This document shows positions 5,815 through 56,091 of a stretch of 64,000 bases of DNA, one piece after another. Source of the stretch: Phycisphaerae bacterium (GTDB lineage: Bacteria > Planctomycetota > Phycisphaerae > Sedimentisphaerales > Anaerobacaceae); NCBI GenBank assembly GCA_028714855.1, contig JAQTLP010000005.1, forward strand, positions 62,001-126,000, in the 5' to 3' direction. The notes beneath the pieces were generated by a model. It ran no database searches. It saw nothing but the letters and a program-made list of their open reading frames with translations, and was not told the origin of the DNA. The translations under genes were made by a program, and so were the position numbers. Within the stretch, counting starts at the first letter, position 1; each line of letters starts with the position of its first letter.

Positions 5815-7017
5815 TTACGTATGATAATCAGCGTTAATTGTTACATAACCTTTGCTCAGGTCGCAGCCGTAGCAGAAGTCGCTGCATTTTCCAGCCCCCA
5901 AATCCACCGTAATTGTATGTTCTTTCCGCGATATAACTTTAGAGACTTTTTTCGGGCTGAATTCCACAGGCCGACCATTCTTAAAAACTATAATATTCCC
6001 GATAGTGCAGGACAGCTTCTTCGGATTCAGCTTAACCCAGGAAGAGCCGACCGCGCAGATAATTCTTCCCCAGTTCGGGTCGCCGCCGTGAATCGCGCAT
6101 TTTACAAGGTCATAATTCGCTACCGCCCGTGCCGCCTTGGCGGCGTCGGCTTTTGTCGCGGCGCCTTCGATAACGACCTTGAACATCCGCGTCGCGCCTT
6201 CTGCATCGAGCGCCATCTGCCGGGCAAGGTCCTGGCACAAATCGACAAGCGATTTGGCGAATTTCTTATACCCAGGCCCCTGCTTAGCAATCAGCGTATT
6301 GCCAGCTATACCGGAAGCAAGAATTATCGCCGTATCGTTGGTGCTTTGATGACCATCGACAGTCAGCTTGTTCAGCGAATCGCCGATAGCAAGTCTAATT
6401 GCCTTTGCCAAAAGCGGCTTTGTTATTGCCACATCGGTAGTGATAAAGCAAAGTGTCGTTGCCATATTCGGCGCAATCATACCTGCCCCTTTGACCGTCC
6501 CTGCTATCGTAACTTTTTTACCCTGTATTGTAATTCGCCGACAAGCCGTCTTGGGTTTGGTGTCGGTGGTCATAATTGCCTTGGTGAAATCCAGTCCCGC
6601 GACAGCGGAATCCCAAAGCTCCCCTATCGCATCTGTAATGCCGGCGGAGACGGCCTTCATCGGCAGCTGCTCGCCAATAATGCCTGTCGAGGCAACGAGG
6701 ACCTCGTGTGGGTCAACCACAAGATAGCCCGCCGTTTCGGAGCACATCTTGACCGCATTTTTAACTCCCGTTTGGCCGGTGCAGGCGTTTGCATTACCGG
6801 AATTAACAACTACTGCATAGATATCTGCGCTTTTAACGTGACGTCTGCTGACCTCAACCGCCGCCGAGGTGATTTTGTTGGTCGTAAAGACCGCCGCCGC
6901 CTTTGCACTGGCTGGACAGACAATCAGTCCCAAATCGTGATTGCCCGACTTCTTTATCCCGCACTTCACCCCTGTTGCCAAAAATCCCTTCGGTGCCGTA
7001 ATTGTATTATTTGCCAT
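5815..7017 (-). CDS. argJ: Bifunctional ornithine acetyltransferase/N-acetylglutamate synthase
   Basis: Transfers the acetyl group from N-acetylornithine to glutamate, recycling acetate in the cyclic arginine pathway; it may also use acetyl-CoA. The precursor cleaves itself before the Thr of the MAPNMAT-type motif, seen here as MIAPNMATTLCFITTD, giving alpha and beta chains. The TVDGHQSTND stretch corresponds to the TVDGDTSTND family motif with two substitutions. Length is 400 residues, normal for the family. It follows argC by only 18 bp, so argC-argJ is one transcription unit. argB and argD are not in the window. Start ATG 7017 (MANNTITAPKGF). Confidence 0.95.
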   Translation of the reverse strand: MANNTITAPKGFLATGVKCGIKKSGNHDLGLIVCPASAKAAAVFTTNKITSAAVEVSRRHVKSADIYAVVVNSGNANACTGQTGVKNAVKMCSETAGYLVVDPHEVLVASTGIIGEQLPMKAVSAGITDAIGELWDSAVAGLDFTKAIMTTDTKPKTACRRITIQGKKVTIAGTVKGAGMIAPNMATTLCFITTDVAITKPLLAKAIRLAIGDSLNKLTVDGHQSTNDTAIILASGIAGNTLIAKQGPGYKKFAKSLVDLCQDLARQMALDAEGATRMFKVVIEGAATKADAAKAARAVANYDLVKCAIHGGDPNWGRIICAVGSSWVKLNPKKLSCTIGNIIVFKNGRPVEFSPKKVSKVISRKEHTITVDLGAGKCSDFCYGCDLSKGYVTINADYHT

Positions 7018-7035
7018 TTGCTCTCTCCATCATCG

Positions 7036-8046
7036 CTATTTAAGGCCGAGTGTTTCTTCAAGGCCGAAAATGATATTCATATTTTGAATCGCCTGGCCGG
7101 AAGCGCCTTTTACCAGATTATCAATCGCCGAGAAAACTACGATTCTGTCCTTTACACAGGCAGGATATACGTGACAATAATTTGTCCCTGCAACATTTTT
7201 AACGGCAGGCGCCTCCGTACAAACCTGCACAAACGTCTCGCCGGCGTAAAAATCTTTATAGAGCTTGCCCAACTGTTCGCCGGTTGTTTTCTTCTTCGGC
7301 TGGCAATATACCGTCGAGAGGATTCCTCTGTCGAAAGGTCCTGCGTGCGGCTGGAACAACATTTGAACATCACTGCCGGCGATTTCACCTGCGATTTGCT
7401 CCATCTCAGGCATATGACGGTGCGTACCTATGCCGTAAGCAAAAATGTTCTCGTTCATATTCGGAAAATGAAATTTAACCGATGGGTTTTTACCCGCTCC
7501 CGATGTTCCGGTTACAGCGTTGACGATAATCGAATCGGTCTCAATGAGACCATTCTTCAGCAGCGGTGCAATTGCCAAGAGTGCTCCTGTGGGAAAACAA
7601 CCCGGATTGGCAATCAAACTGGCGCCTTTTATCTGGTCACGGAACAATTCCGGCAGGCCATAAACCGCATGTTTAAGATTGGCCGTGTCGGTATGTTTCA
7701 CCTGGTAAAATTTTTCGTAAACTTCTGTATTTTTGATACGGTAGTCCGCGCTGAAGTCAACGACCTTTAGCCCGGCCTTGAGAAGTTTCGGCACAAATCC
7801 CATTGAAACTTTATGCGGAAGACAGCACAGCGCAACGTCAGCCAGGCCGGAGAGCTTGTCAATATCCAACGGCTCAATTTGCAAACCGCATCGCCCCTTA
7901 AAACGCGGAAAAACTTCCTCGACTGCCCCGCACTCTTCCGGCAGCGCGCTCAGGTAAGTAAGTTCCGCCTCATTATGGCGCAGGATTATCTCTATCGACT
8001 CGGCTCCGGTATAACCGCTCGCTCCGATGATTGCAACACGTATCAT
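7036..8046 (-). CDS. argC: N-acetyl-gamma-glutamyl-phosphate reductase
   Basis: NADPH-dependent reduction of N-acetylglutamyl phosphate to the semialdehyde, third step of arginine synthesis. The N-terminal Rossmann motif is GASGYTGAE at residues 8-16. The catalytic cysteine is Cys150 in the family motif ANPGCFPTGA. Length is 336 residues, typical of the family. The start at ATG 8046 (MIRVAIIGASG) lies just after the rpsI terminator and follows an AAGGAG-like site, so argCJ may be transcribed from read-through or from a promoter inside the short gap. Confidence 0.96.
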   Translation of the reverse strand: MIRVAIIGASGYTGAESIEIILRHNEAELTYLSALPEECGAVEEVFPRFKGRCGLQIEPLDIDKLSGLADVALCCLPHKVSMGFVPKLLKAGLKVVDFSADYRIKNTEVYEKFYQVKHTDTANLKHAVYGLPELFRDQIKGASLIANPGCFPTGALLAIAPLLKNGLIETDSIIVNAVTGTSGAGKNPSVKFHFPNMNENIFAYGIGTHRHMPEMEQIAGEIAGSDVQMLFQPHAGPFDRGILSTVYCQPKKKTTGEQLGKLYKDFYAGETFVQVCTEAPAVKNVAGTNYCHVYPACVKDRIVVFSAIDNLVKGASGQAIQNMNIIFGLEETLGLK

Positions 8047-27380: not shown

Positions 27381-29249
27381 TCAATCCTTGGGCAGGGTAT
27401 CAAGGTTCTTTTTGACCTGCTCGGCATAGAGGCTGTCAGCATACTTTTCTATAAAGCTTGTTAGAGTTGCCCTTGCGTCAGCCAAATACTTTTTCTTGTT
27501 TTCCGGATTTGACTCGCTCTGATACAAACCAATCTTCAAACGCGCCAACTCGTATAATGCCTGCATTCCGCCGTCAGTGTCCTGGAACCTTTTGTGCAAT
27601 TGGGATAATTTTTCGGCCCGCATTTGCTCATCAGCAACAAGTTTCGCCTGGGCCAGCTGGACATTGTCGCGGAGAGGACCGCTGTTGTTCATCTGTTCCA
27701 GCAATTCGTTGAGTTGCCGGGCATAATCACCGAAGGCGTGCGGGTCTAACATAACGAACTTCGCCAAACGTTTTTCTGCTTCCGGCTCACCGGTTCGATT
27801 TTCCGCTCCTATCAGACTTCGCAGCTGATGTAATTTTATTTGCAGCTCGGTTAACTTGAACACAGTCATTACCGAATCCGCAGGCTTCTGAAACAAACTA
27901 AAGAACCTGTCTTCCTGCGTTTGTTTTTTTCCAAGCAGCTTCAATCGCTCGGCCGTCATATCCTCTGCTTCAGCAAGAAGTTTGTCTGCCCGCTCAAAGT
28001 CACGCTGGCCTGCCGAATATTTCGCCAGGCGCCATCGTGCTTCCAGCGACTCCGCGCTGTCACCGAATTCCGCATACAGCCATTCCCAGCTGTCTTGCGA
28101 GCGTTCGTATGGGTAATCGCTGTAAAAATGCAATATTTCCTTCTGCTCGAACATCTCGATGTCGGGGCTGTATTCACTCAGAAGTGCTCTGTAGTATAGC
28201 GCTATAGGCATCCGCCGGCTGGTGGGACGCCGGCTTACAAAGGTATCGTACTGGGCAGCCAGCCATCGTCTTTTCGTCTGGTAATTTAGCTCCGGCGGCA
28301 CTGTAAACCACCACGGCCAGCGACCGCGGCCAAGCTCATCTACGAGCTTCTCTTTCAATTTAGCACGAAGCGGAATCGGCTCGGTTGGATAAAACGACCT
28401 GTCAAGATACATTCTCACTCTGACGGAAGGATTAGTAATCATTTCGTCCAATGCTTCTCTCATACTGTGGTCGTGAAATTCGATTGCCTGCTCCGGATTG
28501 TTCTTGGCTACGTAGAGCTGGTAGTCTAATTCATCGAAGCCTATTCTTATTTCAAACGTAATCACCGCCAAAAAAAGGAAAATACTCGTGACAATCCACA
28601 CCACGCCGGGCCGGTAACGCGTAAAATGACCTATCCCGATAACCAATCCCGCTATCCCCAAACCTATGAGCCACGCACAAATCCACGGCGTAAAAGAAAA
28701 TCCCCACTTAATAGGTTCCACCCCCCTTGTACCGCCGAAGTATGCCCAAAAAGCAACCTGCGGCGCCGTGCATAATACTATCGCAACGAACCGCGAACGA
28801 AAACGAAGCGGACGGCACGCCGCAGCAAAACAGCTAACCAAAAGGCAGACCGCAAAGGCCGGCAAATTGGCCCCGAAAAATACCAGCAGTATAAAAAGCA
28901 AGCTGTAGCGGAAACTCATCAGCTGTGAAATAAGCACCGGCACAACTGCCATAATGCCCATAAGCAACCCCAAAACAAGAATCTGCCACGGATATTCAAA
29001 TATGCTCAGCCCCGCAGTGACAGACTGCCCCAGATACCAATGCTTGGGAAAAATAACTGATTGAAGGTCAAACGACCAGAACGAGCCGCTGATAATCTTC
29101 GACCAGAAAAATGCGCTTACGCCGAAGGCCGCAATAGCAAGCAGCCAGCACCTTTGAACATTCTCATGGCTGTAGCGCAGCGTAGGGCCTACTGACAGAA
29201 AAGTCCTCGAGGCCACTATAGGCGTTTTTTCGGTCTCTTTATTCTCCAT
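27381..29249 (-). CDS. Polytopic membrane protein with C-terminal TPR-like helical domain
   Basis: 622 residues, family not recognised. Residues about 35-240 form some seven membrane segments (for example CWLLAIAAFGVSAFFW, ILVLGLLMGIMAVVPVLI, LLFILLVFFGANLPAFAVCLLVSCFAAA). The rest is soluble and strongly helical, with TPR-like pieces (SAESLEARWRLAKYSAGQRDFERADKLL, GMQALYELARLKIGLYQ, FIEKYADSLYAEQVKKNL) similar in style to tetratricopeptide cell-envelope proteins such as YbgF/BamD. AAGGTGAG precedes ATG 29249. Lies 44 bp after ahcY and 86 bp before the GT-C/TPR gene; a shared envelope role with the latter is plausible. Confidence 0.65.
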   Translation of the reverse strand: MENKETEKTPIVASRTFLSVGPTLRYSHENVQRCWLLAIAAFGVSAFFWSKIISGSFWSFDLQSVIFPKHWYLGQSVTAGLSIFEYPWQILVLGLLMGIMAVVPVLISQLMSFRYSLLFILLVFFGANLPAFAVCLLVSCFAAACRPLRFRSRFVAIVLCTAPQVAFWAYFGGTRGVEPIKWGFSFTPWICAWLIGLGIAGLVIGIGHFTRYRPGVVWIVTSIFLFLAVITFEIRIGFDELDYQLYVAKNNPEQAIEFHDHSMREALDEMITNPSVRVRMYLDRSFYPTEPIPLRAKLKEKLVDELGRGRWPWWFTVPPELNYQTKRRWLAAQYDTFVSRRPTSRRMPIALYYRALLSEYSPDIEMFEQKEILHFYSDYPYERSQDSWEWLYAEFGDSAESLEARWRLAKYSAGQRDFERADKLLAEAEDMTAERLKLLGKKQTQEDRFFSLFQKPADSVMTVFKLTELQIKLHQLRSLIGAENRTGEPEAEKRLAKFVMLDPHAFGDYARQLNELLEQMNNSGPLRDNVQLAQAKLVADEQMRAEKLSQLHKRFQDTDGGMQALYELARLKIGLYQSESNPENKKKYLADARATLTSFIEKYADSLYAEQVKKNLDTLPKD

Positions 29250-30734: not shown

Positions 30735-31988
30735 ATGAACTTTAAATTAGGATTATTTATGGCCACAATTATATTATCTGCCCAACTCTGTCTTGCGGAA
30801 GACGCCAACGTCGCCGCGAAAATAACGCCTGCCGCCATAGACGCCCGCATCGCCGAAATTCGAATGGGCGACATCATAATAAAAACCAAACCGGGCGCTG
30901 ATGTTAACGTCCGGCAGGTCCGTCACGAATTTTTCTTCGGCGCAGCCATTCCCGACAGCCTCGCGGAAAAAAGTGCTGACGCTATGTCGAAAGAAGACAG
31001 AAAGATGTTCCTGAAGGTCTTAAGCGAGAACTTCAACTACGCCGTCCATGAAAACGCCCTCAAATGGTACGACTGCGAGGCCGAACCCAACGTCGTCGAT
31101 TATTACAGGGCCGACAGAATCTGGGAACTCTGCAATGACCTTAATATCCCGATGCGAGGCCACTGCATTTTCTGGGAAAAAGACGAATTCAACATGGATT
31201 GGCTGAAAAAGCTCAATAACGACCAGCTACGCGCCGCAGTCCACCGCCGGGCAATCGATGTCACGAAACACTTCAAGGGCCGAATCAGCGAATTCGACCT
31301 CAACAACGAAATGGTTCACGGCGACTTCTTCCGCCGGCGCCTCGGCTACGGCATCGTCAGCGAAATGGCCTATATGGCCAAGGTCGGCAATCCCGATATC
31401 ACCCTCTTCGTAAATGATTACGGCATCCTCGTCGAGGACGGCTACAATACCTCAGCTTATATAACCCAAATCGAAAACCTTCTCGCTACCGGCGTCCCCA
31501 TCAGCGGCATCGGCTGCCAGGGCCACTTTGTCGCAACAAAAGCCGCAGGCAAAGCCCTCACCACGCCCGAGCACGTCCAGAAGACACTCGACAAGCTCGC
31601 GAAGTTTAATCTGCCAATCAAAATCACCGAATGTCTTTTCATCGGCGATACCGAACAGGATAAGGCCGATGCCATGCGAATGTTCTTCCCTATTTGTTTT
31701 GCCAACCCGAACGTCGAAGCCATTATAATGTGGGGCTTCTGGGAGCAGGGACACTGGATGCCGCACACCGCTATGTGGAAGAAAGACTGGACGCCCACCC
31801 CTCAGGTCGATGCTTATCGCGACCTCGTCTATAACAAGTGGTGGACACAAACCTCCGGCAAAGCTGACAAAAAAGGCATTTTCAAAACCCGCGCCTTCTA
31901 TGGCGATTACATAATCACCTCGAAGGGCAAGGAAAAGAAAGTTTCACTCACCAAAAAAGATAAATCACTACAAGTGTCTTTCAAATAA
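30735..31988 (+). CDS. Secreted GH10 endo-1,4-beta-xylanase
   Basis: Cuts the xylan backbone. 417 residues with a signal peptide (MNFKLGLFMATIILSAQLCLA, cut after AEDA or just before). GH10 core: acid/base Glu192 in FDLNNEMVHG, nucleophile Glu299 in IKITECLF, the CQGHF and WGFWEQGHWMP blocks. Before it, residues 30-70 form a small domain (IRMGDIIIKTKPGADVNVRQVRHEFFFG) found in xylanases of this subgroup; the tail (KGIFKTRAFYGDYIITSKGK) is also typical. The nucleophile motif is TEC where TELD is common. AAGGA lies nine bases before ATG. It stands alone but fits the glucuronoxylan genes at 46-56 kb. Confidence 0.92.
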   Translation: MNFKLGLFMATIILSAQLCLAEDANVAAKITPAAIDARIAEIRMGDIIIKTKPGADVNVRQVRHEFFFGAAIPDSLAEKSADAMSKEDRKMFLKVLSENFNYAVHENALKWYDCEAEPNVVDYYRADRIWELCNDLNIPMRGHCIFWEKDEFNMDWLKKLNNDQLRAAVHRRAIDVTKHFKGRISEFDLNNEMVHGDFFRRRLGYGIVSEMAYMAKVGNPDITLFVNDYGILVEDGYNTSAYITQIENLLATGVPISGIGCQGHFVATKAAGKALTTPEHVQKTLDKLAKFNLPIKITECLFIGDTEQDKADAMRMFFPICFANPNVEAIIMWGFWEQGHWMPHTAMWKKDWTPTPQVDAYRDLVYNKWWTQTSGKADKKGIFKTRAFYGDYIITSKGKEKKVSLTKKDKSLQVSFK

Positions 31989-33551: not shown

Positions 33552-35459
33552 TCAGGGTCCTCCACTCGGTGGCGGCGCATCGAAGCCTCCTATCGTAATG
33601 CGTCCACCCCCGCCACGCTGACCTGCTTTGCCTTGCCAAGCTCGCAAAGGTTCTTTCGGTTCTTTTTCTTCTTTTCTGATTTCATTAAATTTGTTCTGCA
33701 ATGCTTCGGTCCAATACCTTAGCTTGATAGGCAAACGCTCTATATTTTTCCCATCGTAACTATAAAGCAGGTCATAAAAATGATTGATATGCAGGTTATT
33801 CCCGCCCGACCAATCAGTTACAGGCACAATATCGACCACAACTGCACCGGCAGTATAATCAACCGTCTCCGGGACTTTAACTCCCGCCTTTTCTTCCTCA
33901 GCCGTAATCTTGTATTCACCGGATTTGCCTATAAGTTCTCCCTGTTTGACTATAAAGTCCCTGCTGTACCAATAACCCAACACATACTTTGAAACCTGCA
34001 CGGTTACAGTTTTTGTGGTTTCCTGTATCTCGCGCGGGAAGAAATATAACGTTTTCGGAATATCCACAGTGTCCGTTACGTCAGAAAAATTGCTCCACAA
34101 AATAACTTGGTTCCTCCAGGATTTGTCCTGCTCTCTGAATCGATTTGTCCCCGCTATGGGATTAAAAACGCCAACTCGAATTCTGTAGCGGTAGCTTTCA
34201 CCAGCCTCAACAGTATCATCATACGCCCAGAACAATAATGGTTTGTCCATCCTGGCAAGGTCCGTACTCTCAGTAATCGAAATATCCTGTAATTCCTGAT
34301 AAATATCATCAACGGTCTTTAAAACCTCTTTACCTTTTTGTGGACGTTCCTTTTTCTCGGTTTCCCGAGCAGCCCTCGACGCTGTTTTTCTTGCAGGCGC
34401 AGATGCAACCGACGGCGGCGCATCAAACCCTCCTCCTCCTGCCTCCGCTCCTGCATCAAATGAACCTACAGTTGTTTTTGCCGCTACCTGCCTGCTGCTG
34501 CGCCGCTCTGAACGTTCTGCCTCACGCTCCGCTTTTCTGCCCACAGCAGCTTCACGCCTTTTCATTACATCCATATCTCTCAGATAGCTCAGGTATTTTT
34601 CGTGTAATGAAGGAGGAAACCACTCTTCTTTGGCAGAAGCAATCTGATAAGCTTCCGGCTGCAACATATCCATTTCCACTATCGCATCATCAAATTGAAG
34701 CAGGCGCACTTTTATCCCGCCGGCCGGCAAATCATTAACATGCTCTATAACCTTAAACATTCTTTTGCGCGAGTCTACCCTGCTCCGAGACACGATTTCC
34801 CAATCGCCCCAACTGCCATCGGAAAGCAACTTTTGTCTTTGTAATTGCACAGATGCAAAAACCGGCTTTGCAAGGCCCTGGTCGCGCCAATCCCGCGGAA
34901 TATCCTCCCCGGCAAAACTTGCATTAAACCTTTTATACAACCCCGCAACATCAAACTTTGCTTCTACAGTAACAAAATCAATATCCTCCGGCTCACTATT
35001 AGCCGAGGTATAATCATCTTTCTCGACGACCTCCATCTTAGGCACATAAGCCACCGTCCTGATATGCTCAGCCAATACATCGCTGACTTCACCAACAAAC
35101 GGAATACGATATGCTCTGTTATCACTTATGTCCTCTGAACTAACAATAGGCTGCGGCAGACTGAGGCCGACGTTAATGTCCGTTAAAGCTGAATCGAACC
35201 GAGCAATCAAATCATTAACCCTCGGCTTATACGGCAGCTTTGGTTCAGGCTCACGACTCAGTTTGCTCTCCAAAGCTTTAGCCTGCTCGCTTATGCGATT
35301 ATCAACAGCACCGGGAGCAAACTTATCGTTATCATATTCGACATAATAGGGACTGAACAAAACACGGGTAATAAAAAGCCACAAACACCCGAGCCCAACA
35401 ACAGCCAAAACTATCTTCTCAACATGCTCTTCAAAAAAGTTACTGTATTTTTTACTCAT
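33552..35459 (-). CDS. Membrane-anchored protein of the PilM operon (unknown family)
   Basis: About 635 residues. A cytoplasmic start (MSKKYSNFFEEHVEK) and one membrane segment (IVLAVVGLGCLWLFITRVLF) are followed by a large extracytoplasmic part. Residues about 310-340 are an Arg/Glu-rich charged helix (RREAAVGRKAEREAERSERR); a Gly/Ala-rich linker follows with GGGGFDAPP. The C-terminal half is beta-rich (ESYRYRIRVGVFNPI, TVTVQVSKYVLGYWYSRDF), and the very end repeats the motif as GGFDAPPPSGGP. I do not recognise a named family; position suggests a partner of PilM/PilO-like proteins. ATG 35459 gives the shorter start; ATG 35480 would add seven residues. Confidence 0.7.
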   Translation of the reverse strand: MSKKYSNFFEEHVEKIVLAVVGLGCLWLFITRVLFSPYYVEYDNDKFAPGAVDNRISEQAKALESKLSREPEPKLPYKPRVNDLIARFDSALTDINVGLSLPQPIVSSEDISDNRAYRIPFVGEVSDVLAEHIRTVAYVPKMEVVEKDDYTSANSEPEDIDFVTVEAKFDVAGLYKRFNASFAGEDIPRDWRDQGLAKPVFASVQLQRQKLLSDGSWGDWEIVSRSRVDSRKRMFKVIEHVNDLPAGGIKVRLLQFDDAIVEMDMLQPEAYQIASAKEEWFPPSLHEKYLSYLRDMDVMKRREAAVGRKAEREAERSERRSSRQVAAKTTVGSFDAGAEAGGGGFDAPPSVASAPARKTASRAARETEKKERPQKGKEVLKTVDDIYQELQDISITESTDLARMDKPLLFWAYDDTVEAGESYRYRIRVGVFNPIAGTNRFREQDKSWRNQVILWSNFSDVTDTVDIPKTLYFFPREIQETTKTVTVQVSKYVLGYWYSRDFIVKQGELIGKSGEYKITAEEEKAGVKVPETVDYTAGAVVVDIVPVTDWSGGNNLHINHFYDLLYSYDGKNIERLPIKLRYWTEALQNKFNEIRKEEKEPKEPLRAWQGKAGQRGGGGRITIGGFDAPPPSGGP

Positions 35460-35490
35460 GCCTTTTATCCCGCATAACATGCCCTGCTAC

Positions 35491-36723
35491 TTATTTCTTC
35501 TTCAGTAATTCCTTGATTGATTCCGGTTTAATCTCATCGTAGCTGTTTTTGTAAAAGATATATTCGCAAACTAAATCCAACTGTACTACTGCGTCCTCGC
35601 CATATCGGTAAAGACCACGAGTCTTAGCAGGCTGATCAATCGTCGTAATATTACTCTCTAAAACCGTTATCTGGTTATGTTTGAAAATCTGTTCTTGCTC
35701 CTTACCCGAAAATCCTCTGAATTTGTGCTGCTTGGCGCTGCAAAGCTGCTGCATAAACGGCAAAACCGCTTTTGTACTAACCACAACAGAAATATTAAAA
35801 TGCACAACATCTATATCGTCATTGCAAAACCTTTTGGTATGAGGTATTGTAATCGCCTCTTTAGCCGAAAGAACATAACTGGGCTTTACCACCGCTTTCC
35901 CGCCAATTGCCCCCTTGCCGCTTGCGACAAAATTTACTTCCAGAAGCCGTTTCGCCGGTGATGTGAAAACGCTGCTCGACCCGGAATTCATAGCATCTAT
36001 GGTATCGAAAACATCTTCGATGATCCAATAAGCTAACTGCCAATACCAGCAATCCTCAATCGCTGTGTTCATTCCGATATATTCATAGTCTTCCCAGAAT
36101 TTGTATCCGCTTAATTCTGCCGGTGTAACATAAACAGACGCTTGCTCTGCTTTCTCCCGGCAAAGAACCTCCGTGATGGTAGCTTCAACCTCGCTCTTCA
36201 CATCTGACTTTCCCATTTCGCCCCAATCCCCGCCCCGACGAGCAGTTGATAAGCCGGAGCCCTGCAAAGCTTTTTGCAGTTCGGTATCCGAGGGACAATC
36301 ATGTGCATTTACCTTTGCAATTAGTTTGTCTATCCCGCTGCGATACCGCTGTCCGAATTCCTTGAAAATCAACGTGGAAGCATCCTTAGGCTTAGGAAAT
36401 ATTTTATAACTTAATAACTCCCTTTGGTTGCTTTGCTTGGCTAAAAGTGCCATTTGATTGGCATCTCCCTCGTAAGCCTGCTGATACTTCTGTTCAATTT
36501 CCCATTGGTTGCGGGAAACGGCACTTTGGTTCAGTGATTTAACTCTGTTGCCTATAGAAATACTCTCGGCTTCTATCCGTTGCTTGAGCTTACTGCTCAT
36601 CAATTGAGTAGGTATAAAAAGAAGCACTGCAACCAGAATTATAGTAACCGGCAATATCAGTGATGAATAATTCCTGAGAAAGCTTAATTTCTGTATAAGG
36701 TCTTTAAATTTGGAGATATCCAT
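35491..36723 (-). CDS. PilO/PilN-like single-pass membrane protein
   Basis: 410 residues. A short cytoplasmic N-terminus (MDISKFKDLIQKLSFLRN), one membrane helix (YSSLILPVTIILVAVLLFIPTQL) and then a long helical region (residues about 45-120, KLKQRIEAESISIGNRVKSLNQ) reproduce the layout of PilO/GspM subunits: anchor, coiled coil, ferredoxin-like periplasmic domain. The remaining part is much longer than in PilO (about 200 residues). Sequence identity to known PilO is not obvious, so the call is by topology and by the PilM neighbour 75 bp upstream. Confidence 0.6.
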   Translation of the reverse strand: MDISKFKDLIQKLSFLRNYSSLILPVTIILVAVLLFIPTQLMSSKLKQRIEAESISIGNRVKSLNQSAVSRNQWEIEQKYQQAYEGDANQMALLAKQSNQRELLSYKIFPKPKDASTLIFKEFGQRYRSGIDKLIAKVNAHDCPSDTELQKALQGSGLSTARRGGDWGEMGKSDVKSEVEATITEVLCREKAEQASVYVTPAELSGYKFWEDYEYIGMNTAIEDCWYWQLAYWIIEDVFDTIDAMNSGSSSVFTSPAKRLLEVNFVASGKGAIGGKAVVKPSYVLSAKEAITIPHTKRFCNDDIDVVHFNISVVVSTKAVLPFMQQLCSAKQHKFRGFSGKEQEQIFKHNQITVLESNITTIDQPAKTRGLYRYGEDAVVQLDLVCEYIFYKNSYDEIKPESIKELLKKK

Positions 36724-36798
36724 TTCAACTCACCAATCTATGTTTGCTCTTGGGATTATTTACTGCACCGCTTCTCCGGTCAAAATGCCTCAACAATA

Positions 36799-39090
36799 TC
36801 AAAGTTCGATTTCCTTGCTTTCTTTTTTGCTTTTTCCTGCTCCTTTAGTTTTCTTAGCCTTCGAGGCTTTCTTGCTCACCACGGCGGCCTGAGCAACCTC
36901 TTTAGGGGCATCTTTCCAAGTAAATTTAACATCTAATCTGAACCAGTGGTCATTATCTTTATAAATAACTTTGCCGGACCTGTCAGTTTTATTTTTTCCC
37001 TTCTCGTCCAGATCAGGAACCTTACTGATAATTTCCCTTGTCATAGGGTCTCTCAAAACAACATCCACGCCTTCAGTCTTTTTTGTTTTGTCAACGTTGA
37101 TATCTTCTTCAAGGCCAATCCCTGCAGGCATTTCAGATTCTAAATCTACTTCACCTGTTACCAGCTTGAAATGCTCAATCCTGGTTTTTTCATACAACTC
37201 AAAAGGATTTTCCCAGCCAACAACGTCATCAAGATGCAGCAGTCGAGTAACAACTCCCCACTTATTCGGATCACCTTCCACTCCGACAGGATCCATCAGT
37301 TCACCTACGTTCTTATAGGGACTATATCCAGCAATAGTTACCACAAACCCGGGTCCGGTTTGAGCATCTTTTTCACCCTCTGCCGTGGAATCTTTCCTGC
37401 CCTTTTGGGAAGATGACTTCTGACTATACTTAGACTTTGATCCACTTGCCGACGCAGTAAGATACCCCTCTGCATCCACTATTTCTTCTTGAATGGGCTT
37501 GGGTCCCGACTTGCCTCTACGCCCGAAATCGGCGGCGCCAAATTGCGCAGCAGCCACATCATCTGTAAAGTAAACTGATATACCCGTTACAAATATCTGC
37601 TTGCGTTCCTTGCGATCTTTGCAGGCGTTCAACACCCCTTTCACATCACCGTCGGCAAAAGCTCTATAAAGCTCTTTTTGTTCGGGATTATTTTTTTCGT
37701 TCGGCAAAACTGATATTATGGTTTGAAGCAGCAGCGGGACCACCTCACGATAGGCAAAAGGTTTAAATTCTTTTTCTATTGCTGCTTCGTATTTCAGCCC
37801 CTTGCTTTCCTCATCTTCGAACTTGTTGCCGGCCTGCACGGCCTCTTTAATGACATTGTCGATACTTTGCCGGACCTGCTTATTATTAGCATAATTAACT
37901 CTATCCAGAGCGGTCCTCGCGAAACACATAATCGAAACCAGCAATACCGCAGCCGCTGCAGCAGTAAAGTATTTGGTTTTACCCGCCCATGTCATTGACC
38001 TCGCGATACTGCGGGGCAACAGGTTGCTTTCTATCTTGGCCAGCCCTAAACCTTGCAAAGCAAGGCCATAAACAATACCAAAATCACAAACACTCTCGTG
38101 AAATTTCGCTGCCGAGACATCAGAACTTATCGTAAGCTTCTTAAACGAATCCGGCATTTCTACGGGTATCTGCAGCGTTTGCCGCAAATACTGAAGCAGG
38201 CCTCGCATCTTCGTTCCGCCGCCGAGAGCGATAACCTTCGATATCTTAGTGTTGGGGTTAGAACTGCTGTAAAAGCCCAGTGAGCGCTGGATTTCAGAGG
38301 CTAAATCTGTAAAAACCGGCTTCATCGCCTGAAATACCTGCCGGGCATATTTGCTCATTGCAGCGGTGCGTTTAAGTTTTTCCGCCTTTTCGAAATTGAG
38401 TTTAAACGCTTCCGCCACCGCCCTTGTAAAAGCATTACCTCCCATAGGAACGCTTCTTTGCCAAACTGTTGATTGCGTACAGACAACCAAGTCGCTATTC
38501 TCCGCACCTATGTCAAGAATAACAGTAGCTTGATTGTCGGACTTACCCAAATCACTGAAGTCGTACAATGCGTAATTATACAAAGCCATCGGCGCTATCT
38601 GAACGCAGCTAACCGTTAAATTTTCTCTGGAAAAATGCTCTAATACCGAGCTGACCACCTCACTCTTCACTGCAAAAATACCCACCTTAGTTTCAGAACT
38701 ACCGGCCTCTGCCATCAGCTGCCAGTCCCATTGCACTTCATTTATATCAAAAGGAATCTGCTGGGCCGCCTCGAACTTGACGATTTCAGGAATGCGCTTC
38801 TGTTCAACAGGCGGCAGTTTCACAAAGCGGGCGAAACTATTCTGGCTCGGCACAGAAACAACTATATCGTCCTTGCCCAAACCGTTCTGCTTTACAAACT
38901 GGCGCAAACTTAAGGCAATCAGCTCGTCTCTTTCTTCCGGTTTCATACCGCTTCCGGTAAGAACTTTGCCGTGCTGGATATTGTCGAAGCCGATTACTTC
39001 AACAACGCCCCCTTCGTTCCTTAAGCGCAGCGCTTTGAGGGAATTATTGCCTATATCTATTGCCCACACCGAATTGTACTCACCAGCCAT
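36799..39090 (-). CDS. PilM-like actin-fold protein fused to a membrane-anchored C-terminal domain
   Basis: About 763 residues, more than twice PilM. Residues 1-360 are a PilM/FtsA-type ATPase: phosphate 1 AIDIGNNSLKAL, KFEAAQQIPFDINEVQWDWQ (strong PilM block), phosphate 2 VILDIGAENSDLVV, and adenosine motif KVIALGGGTKMRGL. Then LLPRSIARSMTW leads to a membrane helix near residue 380 (FTAAAAAVLLVSIMCFA). The following ~370 residues would be on the far side, including a Lys/Ser-rich low-complexity linker (GSKSKYSQKSSSQKG) and a Lys-rich tail. In other bacteria PilM is a separate cytosolic protein that binds the PilN tail; here the N-like anchor seems covalently joined. ATG 39090 (MAGEYNSVW) follows GGTGAGGG. 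Heads the three-gene operon. Confidence 0.85.
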   Translation of the reverse strand: MAGEYNSVWAIDIGNNSLKALRLRNEGGVVEVIGFDNIQHGKVLTGSGMKPEERDELIALSLRQFVKQNGLGKDDIVVSVPSQNSFARFVKLPPVEQKRIPEIVKFEAAQQIPFDINEVQWDWQLMAEAGSSETKVGIFAVKSEVVSSVLEHFSRENLTVSCVQIAPMALYNYALYDFSDLGKSDNQATVILDIGAENSDLVVCTQSTVWQRSVPMGGNAFTRAVAEAFKLNFEKAEKLKRTAAMSKYARQVFQAMKPVFTDLASEIQRSLGFYSSSNPNTKISKVIALGGGTKMRGLLQYLRQTLQIPVEMPDSFKKLTISSDVSAAKFHESVCDFGIVYGLALQGLGLAKIESNLLPRSIARSMTWAGKTKYFTAAAAAVLLVSIMCFARTALDRVNYANNKQVRQSIDNVIKEAVQAGNKFEDEESKGLKYEAAIEKEFKPFAYREVVPLLLQTIISVLPNEKNNPEQKELYRAFADGDVKGVLNACKDRKERKQIFVTGISVYFTDDVAAAQFGAADFGRRGKSGPKPIQEEIVDAEGYLTASASGSKSKYSQKSSSQKGRKDSTAEGEKDAQTGPGFVVTIAGYSPYKNVGELMDPVGVEGDPNKWGVVTRLLHLDDVVGWENPFELYEKTRIEHFKLVTGEVDLESEMPAGIGLEEDINVDKTKKTEGVDVVLRDPMTREIISKVPDLDEKGKNKTDRSGKVIYKDNDHWFRLDVKFTWKDAPKEVAQAAVVSKKASKAKKTKGAGKSKKESKEIEL

Positions 39091-50903: not shown

Positions 50904-53048
50904 ATGAAACGCTTATTGAAGAAGATATTGTTTGTGTTATGTATTGTGGTTTCAGTTTGTCCGGTAACCAATGCTGACGACGGCTACGGGCTTTGGCTGT
51001 CCTGTAAAAAGCTGGATGATGCAAAGACGCTGAAAGAATACCAAAAGGTTTTTTCCTGTATTGTAGTCGAGGGCCAGTCTGAAACACTCGGCATCGTCCG
51101 AGAGGAAATTAAAAAGGGGCTGGATGGACTTTTAGGAGCCGATTTGCCTATACAAAGCACACTCACAAAAGGCGCTCTTGTCATCGGCACGCCGAGGCAA
51201 TCTCAAATCATACAGAAACTGGATTTATCCAAAAAACTGGCGGACATAGGCCGTGAAGGATTCCTGATTAAATCGGTCAAGATTGACGGCAATCCGACGG
51301 TAGTCATCGCCGCAAACGAGGACATAGGCCTTTTATACGGAACTTTTGATTTATTGCGGCTTATGCAAATGGGACAATCCTTAAAGAAAGTAAATATCAG
51401 CTCGAAGCCGCGAATTCAATACCGCCTTTTGGACCATTGGGACAGGCTCGATGGTTCCATATCGGACAATCGCGGCTACGCCGGTAAATCATTATGGAAA
51501 TGGGATGAGCTGCCTGAGACAGTAGACCCGCGATATAAAGATTATGCGCGGGCAAACGCCTCGATTGGCATCAATGGTGTGGTTCCCAACAGTGTCAATG
51601 CCGACCCGGCCATCCTTAAGGCTGAATACCTCAAAAAAGTTGCCAAGCTGGCGGAAGTTTTTCGCCCTTACGGCATCAGGGTATTTCTATCGGTCAATTT
51701 TTCATCTCCAATATCGGCCAAGTTCGACCACGAGAGCAACCGAAGAGGCGGCATAGGTAATCTTAAAACCTCCGACCCGTGCGACCCGAAAGTCAAACAA
51801 TGGTGGAAGGATAAAGCAAAGGAGATATATCAGCTCATTCCTGACTTCGGCGGATTTCTGGTAAAGGCCAGCTCCGAGGGCATGCCCGGCCCGCAGCAGG
51901 AATATAACAGGACCCACGCAGATGGGACGAATATGCTGGCTGAAGCCCTGGCTCCTTATGGCGGCGTAGTGATGTGGCGGTCATTTGTCTATAACGCAGA
52001 CGTTGACCCTGACCGTTCGAAACGGGCGTATCTGGAATTTGTTCCTTTCGACGGAAAGTTTAGCCCGAATGTTTTCATTCAAACCAAAAATGGGCCGATT
52101 GACTTTCAGCCCCGCGAACCTGTCAATTCACTGTTCGGGGCAATGCCGAAGACACCTTTGATGCTGGAGCTGCAAATTATGCAGGAGTATCTGGGACATT
52201 CGACGCATCTGGTTTATTTGGCGCCGATGTGGAAAGAATACCTCGAGTTCGATACTTACGCGAAAGGCAAAGGCTCGACCCTTGCTTCGATTATAGACGG
52301 GAGTTCGCATAATTACAAGATGACCGGCATCGCAGGCGTAACGAATACCGGCGACGACCGAAACTGGTGCGGACACATCTTCGGGCAGGCCAACTGGTAT
52401 GCATTCGGGCGCCTGGGGTGGGACCCCGGCTTATCCAGCGAGACGATAGCTGAAGAATGGATTCGCATGACGCTGAGCCGGAATGACAAAGCTGTCAAGG
52501 AAATCGAATCAATGATGATGGGGTCGCGGGAGGCGTGCGTTAACTATATGACGCCGCTCGGCCTGCACCACATTATGCAGGAAGGTTTTCATTACGGCCC
52601 GCAGCCGTCACTTGATAAGAGCGGCAGGATAGACTGGACGAGCGTTTATTACCATCGTGCGGATGCCAACGGCCTTGGTTTCGACAGAAGCTCGACCGGC
52701 AGTAATGCAACATCACAGTATTTTCCGCCAAACGCCAAGATGTTCGACAGTTTGAAAAAATGCCCCGAAAAGTATCTGCTCTGGTTCCACCATGTCCCAT
52801 GGGGCTACAAGATGAAATCCGGCAGGACTTTGTGGGACGAGTTGTGTTACAGATATTATACAGGCGTCGATTATGTAAAAGAGATGGAACACACGTGGGC
52901 GATGCTGGAAAAGGACGTCGACCCTGAGATATATCTGCAGGTTAAGAGGAAATTATCCACACAGGAAGAGGACGCCGCCATCTGGCGGGATACGTGCACC
53001 AGCTATTTTCAGAAATTCAGCAACAGGCCTGTGCCTGCCTATAAATGA
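50904..53048 (+). CDS. GH67 alpha-glucuronidase (secreted)
   Basis: Removes (4-O-methyl)glucuronic acid from the non-reducing end of aldouronic acids released from glucuronoxylan. 714 residues with a signal peptide (MKRLLKKILFVLCIVVSVCPVTNA). Catalytic residues line up with the Cellvibrio enzyme by spacing: acid Glu325 in KASSEGMPGP, and the pair Asp400 in NGPIDFQP and Glu428 in IMQEYLG. Other family blocks: LLDHWDRLDGSISDNRGYAGKSLW and WYAFGRLGWDP. Export is notable since GH67 enzymes are often cytoplasmic; here the acid would be freed outside and taken up by the adjacent transporters. A promoter lies just before it. Confidence 0.95.
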   Translation: MKRLLKKILFVLCIVVSVCPVTNADDGYGLWLSCKKLDDAKTLKEYQKVFSCIVVEGQSETLGIVREEIKKGLDGLLGADLPIQSTLTKGALVIGTPRQSQIIQKLDLSKKLADIGREGFLIKSVKIDGNPTVVIAANEDIGLLYGTFDLLRLMQMGQSLKKVNISSKPRIQYRLLDHWDRLDGSISDNRGYAGKSLWKWDELPETVDPRYKDYARANASIGINGVVPNSVNADPAILKAEYLKKVAKLAEVFRPYGIRVFLSVNFSSPISAKFDHESNRRGGIGNLKTSDPCDPKVKQWWKDKAKEIYQLIPDFGGFLVKASSEGMPGPQQEYNRTHADGTNMLAEALAPYGGVVMWRSFVYNADVDPDRSKRAYLEFVPFDGKFSPNVFIQTKNGPIDFQPREPVNSLFGAMPKTPLMLELQIMQEYLGHSTHLVYLAPMWKEYLEFDTYAKGKGSTLASIIDGSSHNYKMTGIAGVTNTGDDRNWCGHIFGQANWYAFGRLGWDPGLSSETIAEEWIRMTLSRNDKAVKEIESMMMGSREACVNYMTPLGLHHIMQEGFHYGPQPSLDKSGRIDWTSVYYHRADANGLGFDRSSTGSNATSQYFPPNAKMFDSLKKCPEKYLLWFHHVPWGYKMKSGRTLWDELCYRYYTGVDYVKEMEHTWAMLEKDVDPEIYLQVKRKLSTQEEDAAIWRDTCTSYFQKFSNRPVPAYK

Positions 53049-53082: not shown

Positions 53083-56000
53083 ATGCGAGCAACGAATTGG
53101 ACAAAAATTATCGTGGTAACCGCACTTTGCCTGTTCCTTTTAAATCTTTCCTCGTGCGTAGCCCCCGGAGCAAAACCCGGAGTAAAACCCGAGGTCTCAA
53201 TCACTTGCCCGCATCGCTATGTGGATACTGTCGCAAGCGAAGGCAGTTTCCAGCTTGCGAAGAAAAATGAACTTGCGGCCATATATGTCGATTCGGAAGA
53301 CTGGGCAGGCGTTGTTCGCGCGGCGGGCGACCTGCGGGCGGACATCAATCGCGTTACCGGCCGAACCCCGAAGATTACAAACAAGGAAACCACGCTCGGT
53401 AAAAACACCGTAATTATAGGCACACTTGGAAAAAGCAAACTCATCGACCAATTAGTCAAAGAGGTCAAGATAGATGCGTCGAAAATCGACGGCAAGTGGG
53501 AATCATTTATCATCGCGGTCGTGCCAAAACCGCTACCCGGCGTCGAGAACGCTCTTGTTATAGCAGGCAGCGACAAAAGAGGAACTATTTACGGCATATA
53601 TGACCTGTCTGAAAAAATCGGAGTGTCACCGTGGTATTGGTGGGCGGACGTTCCGGCCGAACATAAAGATGCTCTCTTCATCAAGGCAGGTCAATATATA
53701 GAGGGCCCCCCTGCCGTTAAGTATCGCGGAATCTTTATCAATGACGAAGGCTGGGCGCTCGGCCCGTGGGCCAACGAAAAATTCGGCGGCTTCAACAATA
53801 AAATGTACGTTCACATGTTTGAGCTTCTGCTCCGATTGAAAGCCAATCATCTCTGGCCGGGGATGTGGGGCAAATACTTCGGCGAGGATCCAATGAGCCC
53901 GAAACTGGCAGATGAGTACGGCATCGTAATGGGCTCAGCTCACTGCGAACCTTTGCTTTTCAACAATGACCCCGGAGCCAGGAAGTGGGTTTCAGATACG
54001 ATGGGCAAATGGAATTACGGCACCAACAAGGCAAATATATGCAAAGTTCTGGATGAAACCGTCGCAGCAAGGGGACAATACGAGAACCTATATACCGTCG
54101 GATTGCGAGGAGTCCACGACACGAAGATGGAAGGCAATATAGATATAAAGGCGCAAGTCGCTCTGTTAGAACAGGTATTCGAAGACCAGCGGGCGATTCT
54201 TAGCAAATACATAAAGAAAGATATCACGGACATCCCACAGGTTTTTGTCCCTTATAAAGAAGTTCAGGATTATTTAGACAGCGGCCTGAAGGTCCCCGAT
54301 GATGTAACCATTATGTGGAGCGATGACAACTGGGGCAATATCCGCAGGCTGCCCAACCCCAAAGATAAGCCACGAGCCGGCGGCGCCGGTGTTTATTATC
54401 ATTACGATTTCCACGGCGGCCCCCGCTCATACGAATGGCTCAACACCAGTCCTATACCAAGAGTCTGGGAGCAGATGCACCTGGCTTATCAACACGGTGC
54501 TGACAGAATCTGGATTGTGAACGTCGGCGACCTAAAGCCGATGGAATTTCCAATTTCGTTCTTCCTTGATTACGCATGGAATCCTGATAAATGGCCTGCA
54601 GAGAGATTACCTGAATATACCAAACTCTGGGCAGAGCAGCAATTCGGCCCCGAGTATGCGGTGGACATTGCCGATATCCTCGACAAATACACAAAATACA
54701 ACGGCCGACGCAAACCAGAGAGTTTGGCTCCAGACACCTATAGTCTGGTGAACTACCGCGAGGCGGAAACGGTTGTCGCCGAGTACAACGAAATAGCCGA
54801 TAAGGCCGAGAAGATTTACAAAAGTATTCCAGCTAAATACAAAGATGCCTATTATCAACTCGTGCAGTACCCGGTGGCAGCTTGTGCTAATTTAAACGAG
54901 TTATATTTGGCCCTCGGCAAAAATCGCCTCTATGAGAAACAAGGACGCGCCGCCACCAACGATATGACTGATAAAGTTAAAGAGTTGTTTAAGAAAGATG
55001 CCGATCTTTCCAATTATTATCATAAGGAAATGGCAAATGGAAAATGGAACCATATAATGGCCACTACGCACATCGGCTACACATCATGGAATCCGCCGCC
55101 GAAAAATATTATGCCCGAAGTCAATAATATTACGCTTCCTAAGGCCGCGGATATGGGCGTTGCTATTGAAGGCTCAGACAGCTGGTGGCCGATGGACAAC
55201 AGCAAAGCTATCCTGCCCGAGTTCGATCTGTTTAATCAGCAGAAATACTACGTAGAGGTATTCAATCGGGGACAAACGCCTTTCGACTATAAAATCGAAT
55301 CAGCAGAACCGTGGCTGATTGTTACGCCTAATCAGGGAAAGGTTGATAAAGAGCAGCGAGTTTGTGTAAGCGTGGACTGGCAAAAGGCGCCAGCCGGGAA
55401 GAATAGTGCCGCGATTACCATAACGGGGCCTGACAATAAACAGGTCGTTGTCAATGCTCCTATCAACAATCCTGCTTCTCCGAAGCCGGAAGAGGTCAAG
55501 GGTTTTGTCGAGAGCAACGGTTATGTCTCCATCGAAGCTGAGCATTATGCCCGCGCGGTGGAAGCACCGCCCGTTAAGTGGCTGCGTATTCCCGATTTGA
55601 GCCGGACACTTTCCGGAATAACTCCTGTGCCGGTAACATCTGAAAGTCAGAAACCCGAAGGAGACAGCCCCCGCCTTGAGTATCCTATGTATCTCTTTAA
55701 CAGCGGCAAGGTGGAAGTGAAGGTGTACGTATGTCCTACCCAAAACTTCCTTAATACTGGCGGACTGCGGTATGCTGTTTCGTTCGATGATGAGACGCCT
55801 CAAATTGTCAATATCCACGTGAATGATCTTGCAGTTCCTGACTGGAAGTATCCTCCAGGCTGGAACCAGGCGGTAATGGAGAATATTAAAATAACAACCT
55901 CCGAACATAATATCGGAAAGCCCGGCGAGCATGTTCTGAAATTCTGGATGGTTGACCCCGGCATCGTGCTACAGAAAATTGTTGTCGATACCGGCGGCGT

Positions 56001-56091
56001 CAAACCAAGTTATCTCGGCCCGCCCGAAAGCTATCGCAAAGGCTGTCCGGTTGTCTCGCCTGAAGGCTGTTCCCAGGGAAAGAAACCGTGA
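53083..56091 (+). CDS. GH115 xylan alpha-1,2-glucuronidase (lipoprotein)
   Basis: Removes (4-O-methyl)glucuronic acid from internal xylose units of polymeric xylan, complementing GH67. 1002 residues. Lipobox NLSSC (Cys near residue 25) predicts a lipid-anchored protein. GH115 blocks: VIAGSDKRGTIYGIYDLSEKIGVSPWYWWADVP, YRGIFINDEGWALGPW, LRLKANHLWPGMWGKYF, MWSDDNWGNIRRLP and YHYDFHGGPRSYEWLNTSP. The C-terminal beta-sandwich (YVSIEAEHYARAV to KIVVDTGG) is usual. AAGGAG precedes ATG. It lies 35 bp after GH67 and ends with a clear terminator. Confidence 0.94.
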   Translation: MRATNWTKIIVVTALCLFLLNLSSCVAPGAKPGVKPEVSITCPHRYVDTVASEGSFQLAKKNELAAIYVDSEDWAGVVRAAGDLRADINRVTGRTPKITNKETTLGKNTVIIGTLGKSKLIDQLVKEVKIDASKIDGKWESFIIAVVPKPLPGVENALVIAGSDKRGTIYGIYDLSEKIGVSPWYWWADVPAEHKDALFIKAGQYIEGPPAVKYRGIFINDEGWALGPWANEKFGGFNNKMYVHMFELLLRLKANHLWPGMWGKYFGEDPMSPKLADEYGIVMGSAHCEPLLFNNDPGARKWVSDTMGKWNYGTNKANICKVLDETVAARGQYENLYTVGLRGVHDTKMEGNIDIKAQVALLEQVFEDQRAILSKYIKKDITDIPQVFVPYKEVQDYLDSGLKVPDDVTIMWSDDNWGNIRRLPNPKDKPRAGGAGVYYHYDFHGGPRSYEWLNTSPIPRVWEQMHLAYQHGADRIWIVNVGDLKPMEFPISFFLDYAWNPDKWPAERLPEYTKLWAEQQFGPEYAVDIADILDKYTKYNGRRKPESLAPDTYSLVNYREAETVVAEYNEIADKAEKIYKSIPAKYKDAYYQLVQYPVAACANLNELYLALGKNRLYEKQGRAATNDMTDKVKELFKKDADLSNYYHKEMANGKWNHIMATTHIGYTSWNPPPKNIMPEVNNITLPKAADMGVAIEGSDSWWPMDNSKAILPEFDLFNQQKYYVEVFNRGQTPFDYKIESAEPWLIVTPNQGKVDKEQRVCVSVDWQKAPAGKNSAAITITGPDNKQVVVNAPINNPASPKPEEVKGFVESNGYVSIEAEHYARAVEAPPVKWLRIPDLSRTLSGITPVPVTSESQKPEGDSPRLEYPMYLFNSGKVEVKVYVCPTQNFLNTGGLRYAVSFDDETPQIVNIHVNDLAVPDWKYPPGWNQAVMENIKITTSEHNIGKPGEHVLKFWMVDPGIVLQKIVVDTGGVKPSYLGPPESYRKGCPVVSPEGCSQGKKP

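Follow-up and report, generated by a model that had tools for sequence, protein, structure and literature searches.

Three adjacent minus-strand genes lie at positions 33552-39090 of the window, a stretch of 64,000 nucleotides (contig JAQTLP010000005.1, positions 62,001 to 126,000; hereafter contig C5) from the Phycisphaerae bacterium assembly GCA_028714855.1. They probably specify the inner-membrane platform of a type IV pilus-like machine whose genes are dispersed and which is related to the Amuc_1098-1101 system of Akkermansia; contig C4 of the same genome would supply the secretin, and contig C9 the motor and pilins. Comparison of sequences and structures yields the evidence: the domain order of the first protein (P0001), a motif at its internal junction, the conservation of the operon, the Amuc_1100 fold of the second product (P0002), and the relationships of the secretin and of the motor cluster.

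A PilM protein with a PilN-like extension

Open reading frame (ORF) analysis places the three genes where the sequence-only reading had put them, and the operon that it described, headed by a PilM protein fused to a membrane anchor, is borne out. In P0001, the Pfam domain PilM_2 covers residues 11-346 (E 2.4e-42, 145.6 bits), the strongest hydrophobic stretch spans residues 377-395, and 368 residues remain C-terminal of it. A profile built from 25 proteins of the class matches solved PilM structures, among them that of M. xanthus (3jc8_Ma, E 1.1e-50), and aligns to the PilM-PilN construct 5eou_A through its NLLP end. The same profile aligns M. xanthus PilN (3jc8_Na) directly after the PilM part at an E of 0.27, which is not significant.

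The junction itself is well conserved. The pattern N-[LIMV]-[LIMVT]-[PT] stands there in 107 of 127 fused proteins, 98 of these ending in P, and the remaining 20 carry S/T/D-L-L/M-P; a control window has the motif in 1 of 127. A hydrophobic stretch follows the motif in 123 of the 127 proteins, and INLLP is present in some relatives from outside the class. The gap between the fusion and gene 2 is shorter than 400 bases at 96 of 97 complete loci, leaving no room for a separate PilN gene. From domain order, motif and topology we conclude that P0001 represents a putative natural PilM-PilN fusion. Since its junction carries a PilN-type motif, the contact between PilM and PilN is probably covalent here, as the sequence-only reading had proposed; the fusion and the motif sustain that proposal.

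Relationship to the Akkermansia system

NCBIfam model NF045709 (Amuc_1101) gives P0001 246.4 bits over model positions 49-435 of 608, against 161 bits from the ordinary PilM model. For the three other PilM-like proteins of the genome the preference is reversed (94 vs 134, 80 vs 100 and 52 vs 55 bits). All 25 class members scanned match NF045709. So does a compact relative of 606 residues from outside the class (L212), which scores 261.9 bits against 132 for PilM and aligns to positions 34-597 of 608; another relative, L206, reaches 207.4 bits, under the cut-off. As P0001 does not attain the curated cut-off of 650 bits, we do not call it an Amuc_1101 equivalog.

The two downstream proteins are silent in family searches: neither P0002 nor P0003 has a single Pfam or NCBIfam match even at E 10, profiles of both gave only matches taken for chance, and so did a phmmer search of P0002 against the PDB. 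Each has one strong, N-terminal hydrophobic stretch, with a weaker one at residue 306 of P0002. An AlphaFold model of P0002 (53 sequences; mean predicted local distance difference test score, pLDDT, 87.8) is more informative. Foldseek lists Amuc_1100 first (E 1.5e-3, probability 0.99) and gives PilO (2rjz_A) a probability of 1.00; VIA-align superimposes Amuc_1100 with Z 11.9 at 3.7 A over 171 of 190 residues, followed by PilO at Z 7.2 (2rjz), 7.0 and 6.1 (5uvr), and by the first unrelated row at Z 5.1. The model thus supports in part the view that gene 2 has an Amuc_1100 fold, with PilO next nearest. The earlier description of genes 2 and 3 as PilO-like without a clear family match therefore stands for gene 2 as regards topology, now with an Amuc_1100 fold, and for both genes as regards the missing family match. 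A standard PilMNOPQ platform was rejected on the model scores (246 vs 161 bits) and on the Amuc_1100 fold of gene 2.

Conservation and distribution

Two sets of loci were compared, one from class genomes (29 taken, 28 complete) and one of named loci (80 taken, 69 complete), the nearest of the latter being titled Sedimentisphaerales, Phycisphaerae or Planctomycetota; the organisms overlap, and incomplete or weak loci (1 of 29 and 11 of 80) were set aside. All 28 complete class-genome loci and 68 of the 69 complete named loci have the three genes side by side, in the same order and on a single strand. The single departure reflects an over-limit gap or a broken frame; locus L130 shows a split PilM frame. 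Because order, adjacency and strand are kept to this extent, the arrangement is not a product of chance.

Of 150 class genomes, 147 have a match to P0001, with a best E of 5.2e-49 or lower in 146 and a weaker one in G147; no match was found in G013, G017 and G027. Fused status across the class was judged from E-value and open frame (468-956 residues in the best rows) rather than genome by genome. Among 199 genomes drawn across the phylum, a P0002 profile finds 31, of which 12 belong to the class and 19 lie outside it. The outside matches are weak (E 1e-8 to 9e-4), and 18 of the 19 adjoin a fused PilM (L224 does not); at these 18 loci gene 3 is recognised in 14 and a secretin of the C4 type in 6. 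In a tree of PilM domains, 48 fused proteins fall apart from 4 canonical ones, with moderate support (87/86) and long canonical branches, and the rows from the class mostly group together. Our best reading is that the fused-PilM machine is present in about 146 of the 150 class genomes and in some genomes outside the class.

Two genomes deserve mention in their own right. G042, from the window's order, has the three-gene operon twice; the PilM of the divergent second copy (L083) clusters in the tree with the one from L066, a locus of another family, which suggests that this copy may have been acquired by transfer. G013, assembled in two contigs and 100% complete, has a large secretin; neither a fused PilM nor P0002 was detected in it, unlike in three genomes of its genus.

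The secretin

In the two sets of complete loci, a large secretin comes directly after gene 3 in 7 (of 28) and 20 (of 69) cases, and in one further locus, L076, it lies upstream of the operon. Directly after gene 3 in the window none was found. Counted by genome, 46 of 146 have this secretin on the same strand and no more than 15 kb away (43 downstream, 3 upstream) and 26 could not be judged, 11 having no secretin row and 15 lying too near the contig start; this count leaves out G147 and does not set aside genes near the far end of a contig. All 150 class genomes have a member of this family at E 1e-3, 147 of them at 1e-73 or better. Its representative in the window's genome is a protein of 1040 residues encoded on C4, which matches seven operon-linked secretins at E 2e-41 to 1e-77. 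Of the three other secretins in the genome, the C4 protein matches two, at only 2e-5 to 3e-5, while the third stays below threshold. TPR repeats score above cut-off in two of four secretins scanned and just under it in the C4 protein.

Motor and pilin genes

PilB/PilT/GspE-family ATPases occur in 150 of 150 class genomes, so that their mere presence is uninformative. In the window's genome, reading of the relevant stretches finds platforms accompanied by motors on C6, on C8 and twice on C2, where the second has no secretin of its own close by, and a PilB-PilT-PilB-PilC-pilin cluster on C9. The C9 cluster has no PilM or secretin match and no PilN-like or PilO-like ORF was seen in it. Secretin, PilB and PilC are represented in the genome by family matches, PilT and pilins by ORF reading and by relatives.

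Which of these motors would serve the fused platform is suggested by the six genomes of one family, f9. Each has one PilM match, the fused PilM, in a search with a single-protein query that could miss a divergent PilM; PilN was not found in the four that were examined. Five have a single secretin, of the C4 type; in four of these it is linked to the fused PilM gene, and in G014 it lies on another contig. The sixth, G040, has two secretins, of which one is so linked. PilB-PilT-PilB is present in every one of the six, arranged as on C9. Among the pilus loci fetched from the window's genome, the best matches of these three proteins are those of C9, at 56-57%, 63-66% and 64-65% identity, with the next best at 44% or less. 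PilC, too, best matches that of C9 in all six (50-54%); it adjoins the cluster in three genomes and lies on a different contig in the other three. Pilin-like ORFs follow PilC in the four genomes where the contig continues. Given this co-occurrence with the fused PilM, the C9 cluster most likely supplies the motor and pilins of the fused platform. Several f9 genomes have a further ATPase/T2SSF cluster, Tad-like by reading, that could also use a secretin, and G040 has a second PilB/PilC pair.

Features of the locus and of the window

The coordinates are collected in Table 1. Relatives' versions of P0003 begin 7 residues further in. The operon is flanked, by reading of the ORFs, by a dihydrouridine synthase-like gene and, upstream, by a divergent MtaB-like ORF.

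Table 1. The three-gene operon and its parts (positions in the window)
Feature	Position	Strand	Basis
P0001, PilM-PilN-like fusion, 763 aa	36799..39090	-	ORF, Pfam, NCBIfam, profile search
PilM (actin/FtsA-like) domain, P0001 residues 1-346, presumed cytosolic	38053..39090	-	Pfam PilM_2; M. xanthus PilM 3jc8_Ma
NLLP motif, P0001 residues 356-359, resembles PilN N-terminal motif	38014..38025	-	5eou_A alignment; conservation count
Predicted membrane helix, P0001 residues 377-395	37906..37962	-	hydropathy 2.01 over 19 residues
P0001 residues 396-763, long helices and alpha/beta region, PilN-like position	36802..37905	-	predicted model, residues 348-763
P0002, Amuc_1100/PilO-like protein, 410 aa	35491..36723	-	predicted model, fold comparison
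Predicted membrane helix, P0002 residues 19-37	36613..36669	-	hydropathy
P0002 residues 85-398, part aligned to Amuc_1100	35530..36471	-	VIA-align
P0003, third gene, 642 aa, PilP or Amuc_1099 position	33552..35480	-	ORF, relatives' loci
Predicted membrane helix, P0003 residues 23-41	35358..35414	-	hydropathy

P0003 contains three GSFD/GGFD motifs, one of them near the C-terminus, and in some relatives the fused PilM and the gene 3 product likewise have Gly-rich repeats. Gly-Gly-Phe-Asp-like motifs were dropped as a feature, their frequency being 0.30 to 0.67 per 1000 residues in four families and 0.26 in other genes of the same loci. Elsewhere in the window, a plus-strand open frame of 649 residues (5821-7770) runs antisense to ArgJ (5815-7017, minus strand); it has no Pfam match at 1e-4 and is probably a chance antisense frame. 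A minus-strand gene at 27381-29249 encodes a protein of 622 residues with hydrophobic stretches, by eye, in its first part and no Pfam match at 1e-4.

Discussion

In the machine proposed here, the platform would be formed by the PilM-PilN-like fusion, the PilO-like protein and a third protein in the PilP/GspC position. The PilM domain would make the contact on the cytosolic side and, being continuous with the PilN-like helix, could relay its state along one polypeptide to the periplasmic PilO-like protein and the gene 3 product. These two would reach the outer-membrane secretin encoded on C4, and PilB and PilT would power the assembly and withdrawal of pilins via PilC. We infer the physical assembly of these parts and their topology, as we do the pairing with C4 and C9 and the part of gene 3 as link to the secretin. 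More tentatively still, the filament might bind polysaccharide and feed the periplasm.

The sequence-only reading had stated that no PilB, PilC, PilQ or pilin gene is adjacent, which is correct: PilB-type, PilC-type and secretin searches gave no match on C5, and no pilin was seen at the locus. Its further suggestion of a reduced machine is not supported. Genes of the PilB, PilC and PilT types, pilin-like genes and a secretin of the cognate type are found elsewhere in the genome, and many relatives carry the secretin as their fourth gene; an orphan or reduced machine was rejected on the presence of those dispersed genes. The same reading had set a standard type IV pilus locus against its proposal, and the outcome lies partway, in that the platform is of the type IV pilus kind with such genes elsewhere, yet nearer to the Akkermansia Amuc_1098-1101 type.

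Several observations weigh against the proposed machine and its predicted filament. At the locus, an Amuc_1102-like pilin was not seen, as judged by ORFs with no pilin profile used. In 18 of the 28 and 39 of the 69 complete loci there is room of at least 3.5 kb after gene 3 and no secretin, and in 74 of the 146 genomes none lies within 15 kb, some of these being split contigs. The C4 secretin obtains 57 bits from the Amuc_1098 model, whose cut-off is 750; its best NCBIfam model is MshL, and MshL, PilQ and GspD all outscore Amuc_1098. P0001, as noted, falls short of the NF045709 cut-off. For P0002, no Foldseek match reaches E 1e-3, and the Z of 7.2 for PilO lies below 8, where a VIA-align score can mean a common arrangement. 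Gene 3 has no family match, nothing in Pfam reaching above cut-off. The case for pairing with C9 comes from co-occurrence in six genomes, all from a single family. Finally, a model of P0001 residues 348-763 (mean pLDDT 82.3, alignment of 43 sequences) has no clear PDB match by Foldseek and VIA-align, PF05137 (PilN) matches neither this C-terminus nor any of 17 members scanned, and hhalign detects no relation between the fused C-terminus and gene 2.

These last results bear on the alternative that the fused C-terminus is an unrelated periplasmic part that became joined to PilM, its NLLP motif being convergent. The lack of PF05137 and PDB fold matches would fit such an origin. Among 290 PDB chains aligned, none has Z 8 or higher, and the absence of PilN from those lists is no evidence of absence; a profile search with the C-terminal part of P0001 returned no matches, and Pfam found nothing above cut-off in the C-termini of compact relatives or in gene 2 relatives. 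We nevertheless think an unrelated origin improbable, since the NLLP-type motif, the membrane helix and the long helices stand in PilN order, INLLP recurs in some relatives outside the class, M. xanthus PilN aligns straight after PilM (though only at that E of 0.27), and a separate PilN gene cannot fit before gene 2.

A type II secretion-like platform exporting enzymes, in which P0001 would be a GspL analogue, gene 2 GspM, gene 3 GspC and the secretin GspD, is somewhat harder to credit. GspL has an actin-like domain, a membrane helix and a periplasmic part in one chain, the same domain order as P0001; the gene 3 product shares with GspC an N-terminal hydrophobic helix; a GspD model matches the C4 secretin at 72 bits, under its cut-off; and glycoside hydrolase genes lie in the window. 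However, P0001 scores only 18.6 bits with TIGR01709 (cut-off 65) and 21.8 with PF05134 (cut-off 25.5), against its PilM_2 score, and a GspL identity was rejected because both GspL models stay below cut-off. Another GspL-like gene (26 bits, below cut-off) is found near a secretin and PilB/PilC-type genes on C8, the f9 motor cluster includes a PilT-type ATPase, and gene 2 resembles Amuc_1100 and PilO. One could also envision PilMNO parts that have been taken over by some other envelope structure and have ceased to work with a pilus motor, as reported for the flagellar cage (FcpMNO) of Campylobacterota (PMC11870540). The window's operon does stand alone, with motor and secretin not found on its contig, and of 23 genomes of its order none has a linked secretin (15 have none within 15 kb, 8 were not judged). 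Recruitment is made very improbable by secretin linkage in other families and by the f9 genomes, which have PilB, PilT, PilC and pilin-like genes but no PilM detected other than the fused one.

The closest system compared is Amuc_1098-Amuc_1102 of Akkermansia muciniphila (MUL2; NF045709, NF042912; PDB 6LAD, 6LAF, 6KNY), which that organism employs on mucin. Both have a PilM-type protein longer than PilM, followed by an Amuc_1100-fold gene and a third gene, and in many relatives a large secretin comes fourth (the Akkermansia order being taken from locus tags); P0003 is likened to Amuc_1099 by gene position only. They differ in that P0001 and the C4 secretin are below the curated cut-offs of both models and longer than these models by a factor of about 1.25-1.3 (763 vs 608 and 1040 vs 805), in the lack of a pilin at the locus, in the unlinked secretin of the window's genome, and in the host, which belongs to Planctomycetota and not Verrucomicrobiota. 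Amuc_1098 is described in PMC5332112 as a predicted type II/III secretion protein. With the type IVa pilus (PilMNOPQ plus PilB, PilC and PilT) the system shares the PilM domain, the PilN-type motif, the PilO-like fold, the M-N-O-P-Q order by position, and secretin and motor-type genes in the genome. Unlike in type IVa pili, PilM and the PilN-like part form one chain, the fused part is not recognised as PilN, gene 3 has a membrane helix and no PilP match, and the secretin is larger. The likeness to type II GspL, GspM and GspC is one of chain architecture, from which P0001 is set apart by its scores below the GspL cut-offs and by the separate GspL-like gene on C8.

The PilM-PilN fusion as such is already known. 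Most type IV pilus clusters of Campylobacterota, ordered pilMNOPQ, have PilM and PilN in one gene, according to PMC11870540; that fusion belongs to another phylum, and its likeness to P0001 is one of description. Among the open-licence papers listed by our searches, we found none tying this operon to the Akkermansia cluster and none joining Amuc_1100 with planctomycetes.

A pilus function would follow from the parts of the machine, and analogy points to a role in catching glycans. MUL2 has been tied by prediction to glycan attachment in Akkermansiaceae, for which uptake of labelled fucoidan was shown by incubation (PMC13174399). The crateriform structures of planctomycetes carry pili-like fibres that bind gold-dextran, and dextran gathers in the periplasm, as reported in PMC5394234; such fibres are likened to type IV pili in PMC8303584. 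In Planctopirus limnophila, mutants deleted for three pilQ-like genes (Plim_0794, Plim_3284 and Plim_3688) are reported to be viable (PMC11958385). The window also holds, outside the operon, GH10, GH67 and GH115 genes (30735-31988, 50904-53048 and 53083-56091), likely a glucuronoxylan-degrading set as expected for a xylan user. A bolder and rather doubtful extension would see in the machine an ancestral glycan-catching pilus of the Planctomycetota-Verrucomicrobiota lineage, whose genes lie behind crateriform pores and dextran-binding fibres and whose covalent PilM-PilN chain couples withdrawal to polysaccharide uptake into an enlarged periplasm.

A machine that we found described only for Akkermansia and its family appears near-universal in one class of planctomycetes and present outside it. 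Its genes offer concrete candidates to account for two features seen by microscopy in planctomycetes, the crateriform structures and the fibres that bind dextran, and a natural covalent PilM-PilN chain may provide a way to study how pilus motors signal across the inner membrane.

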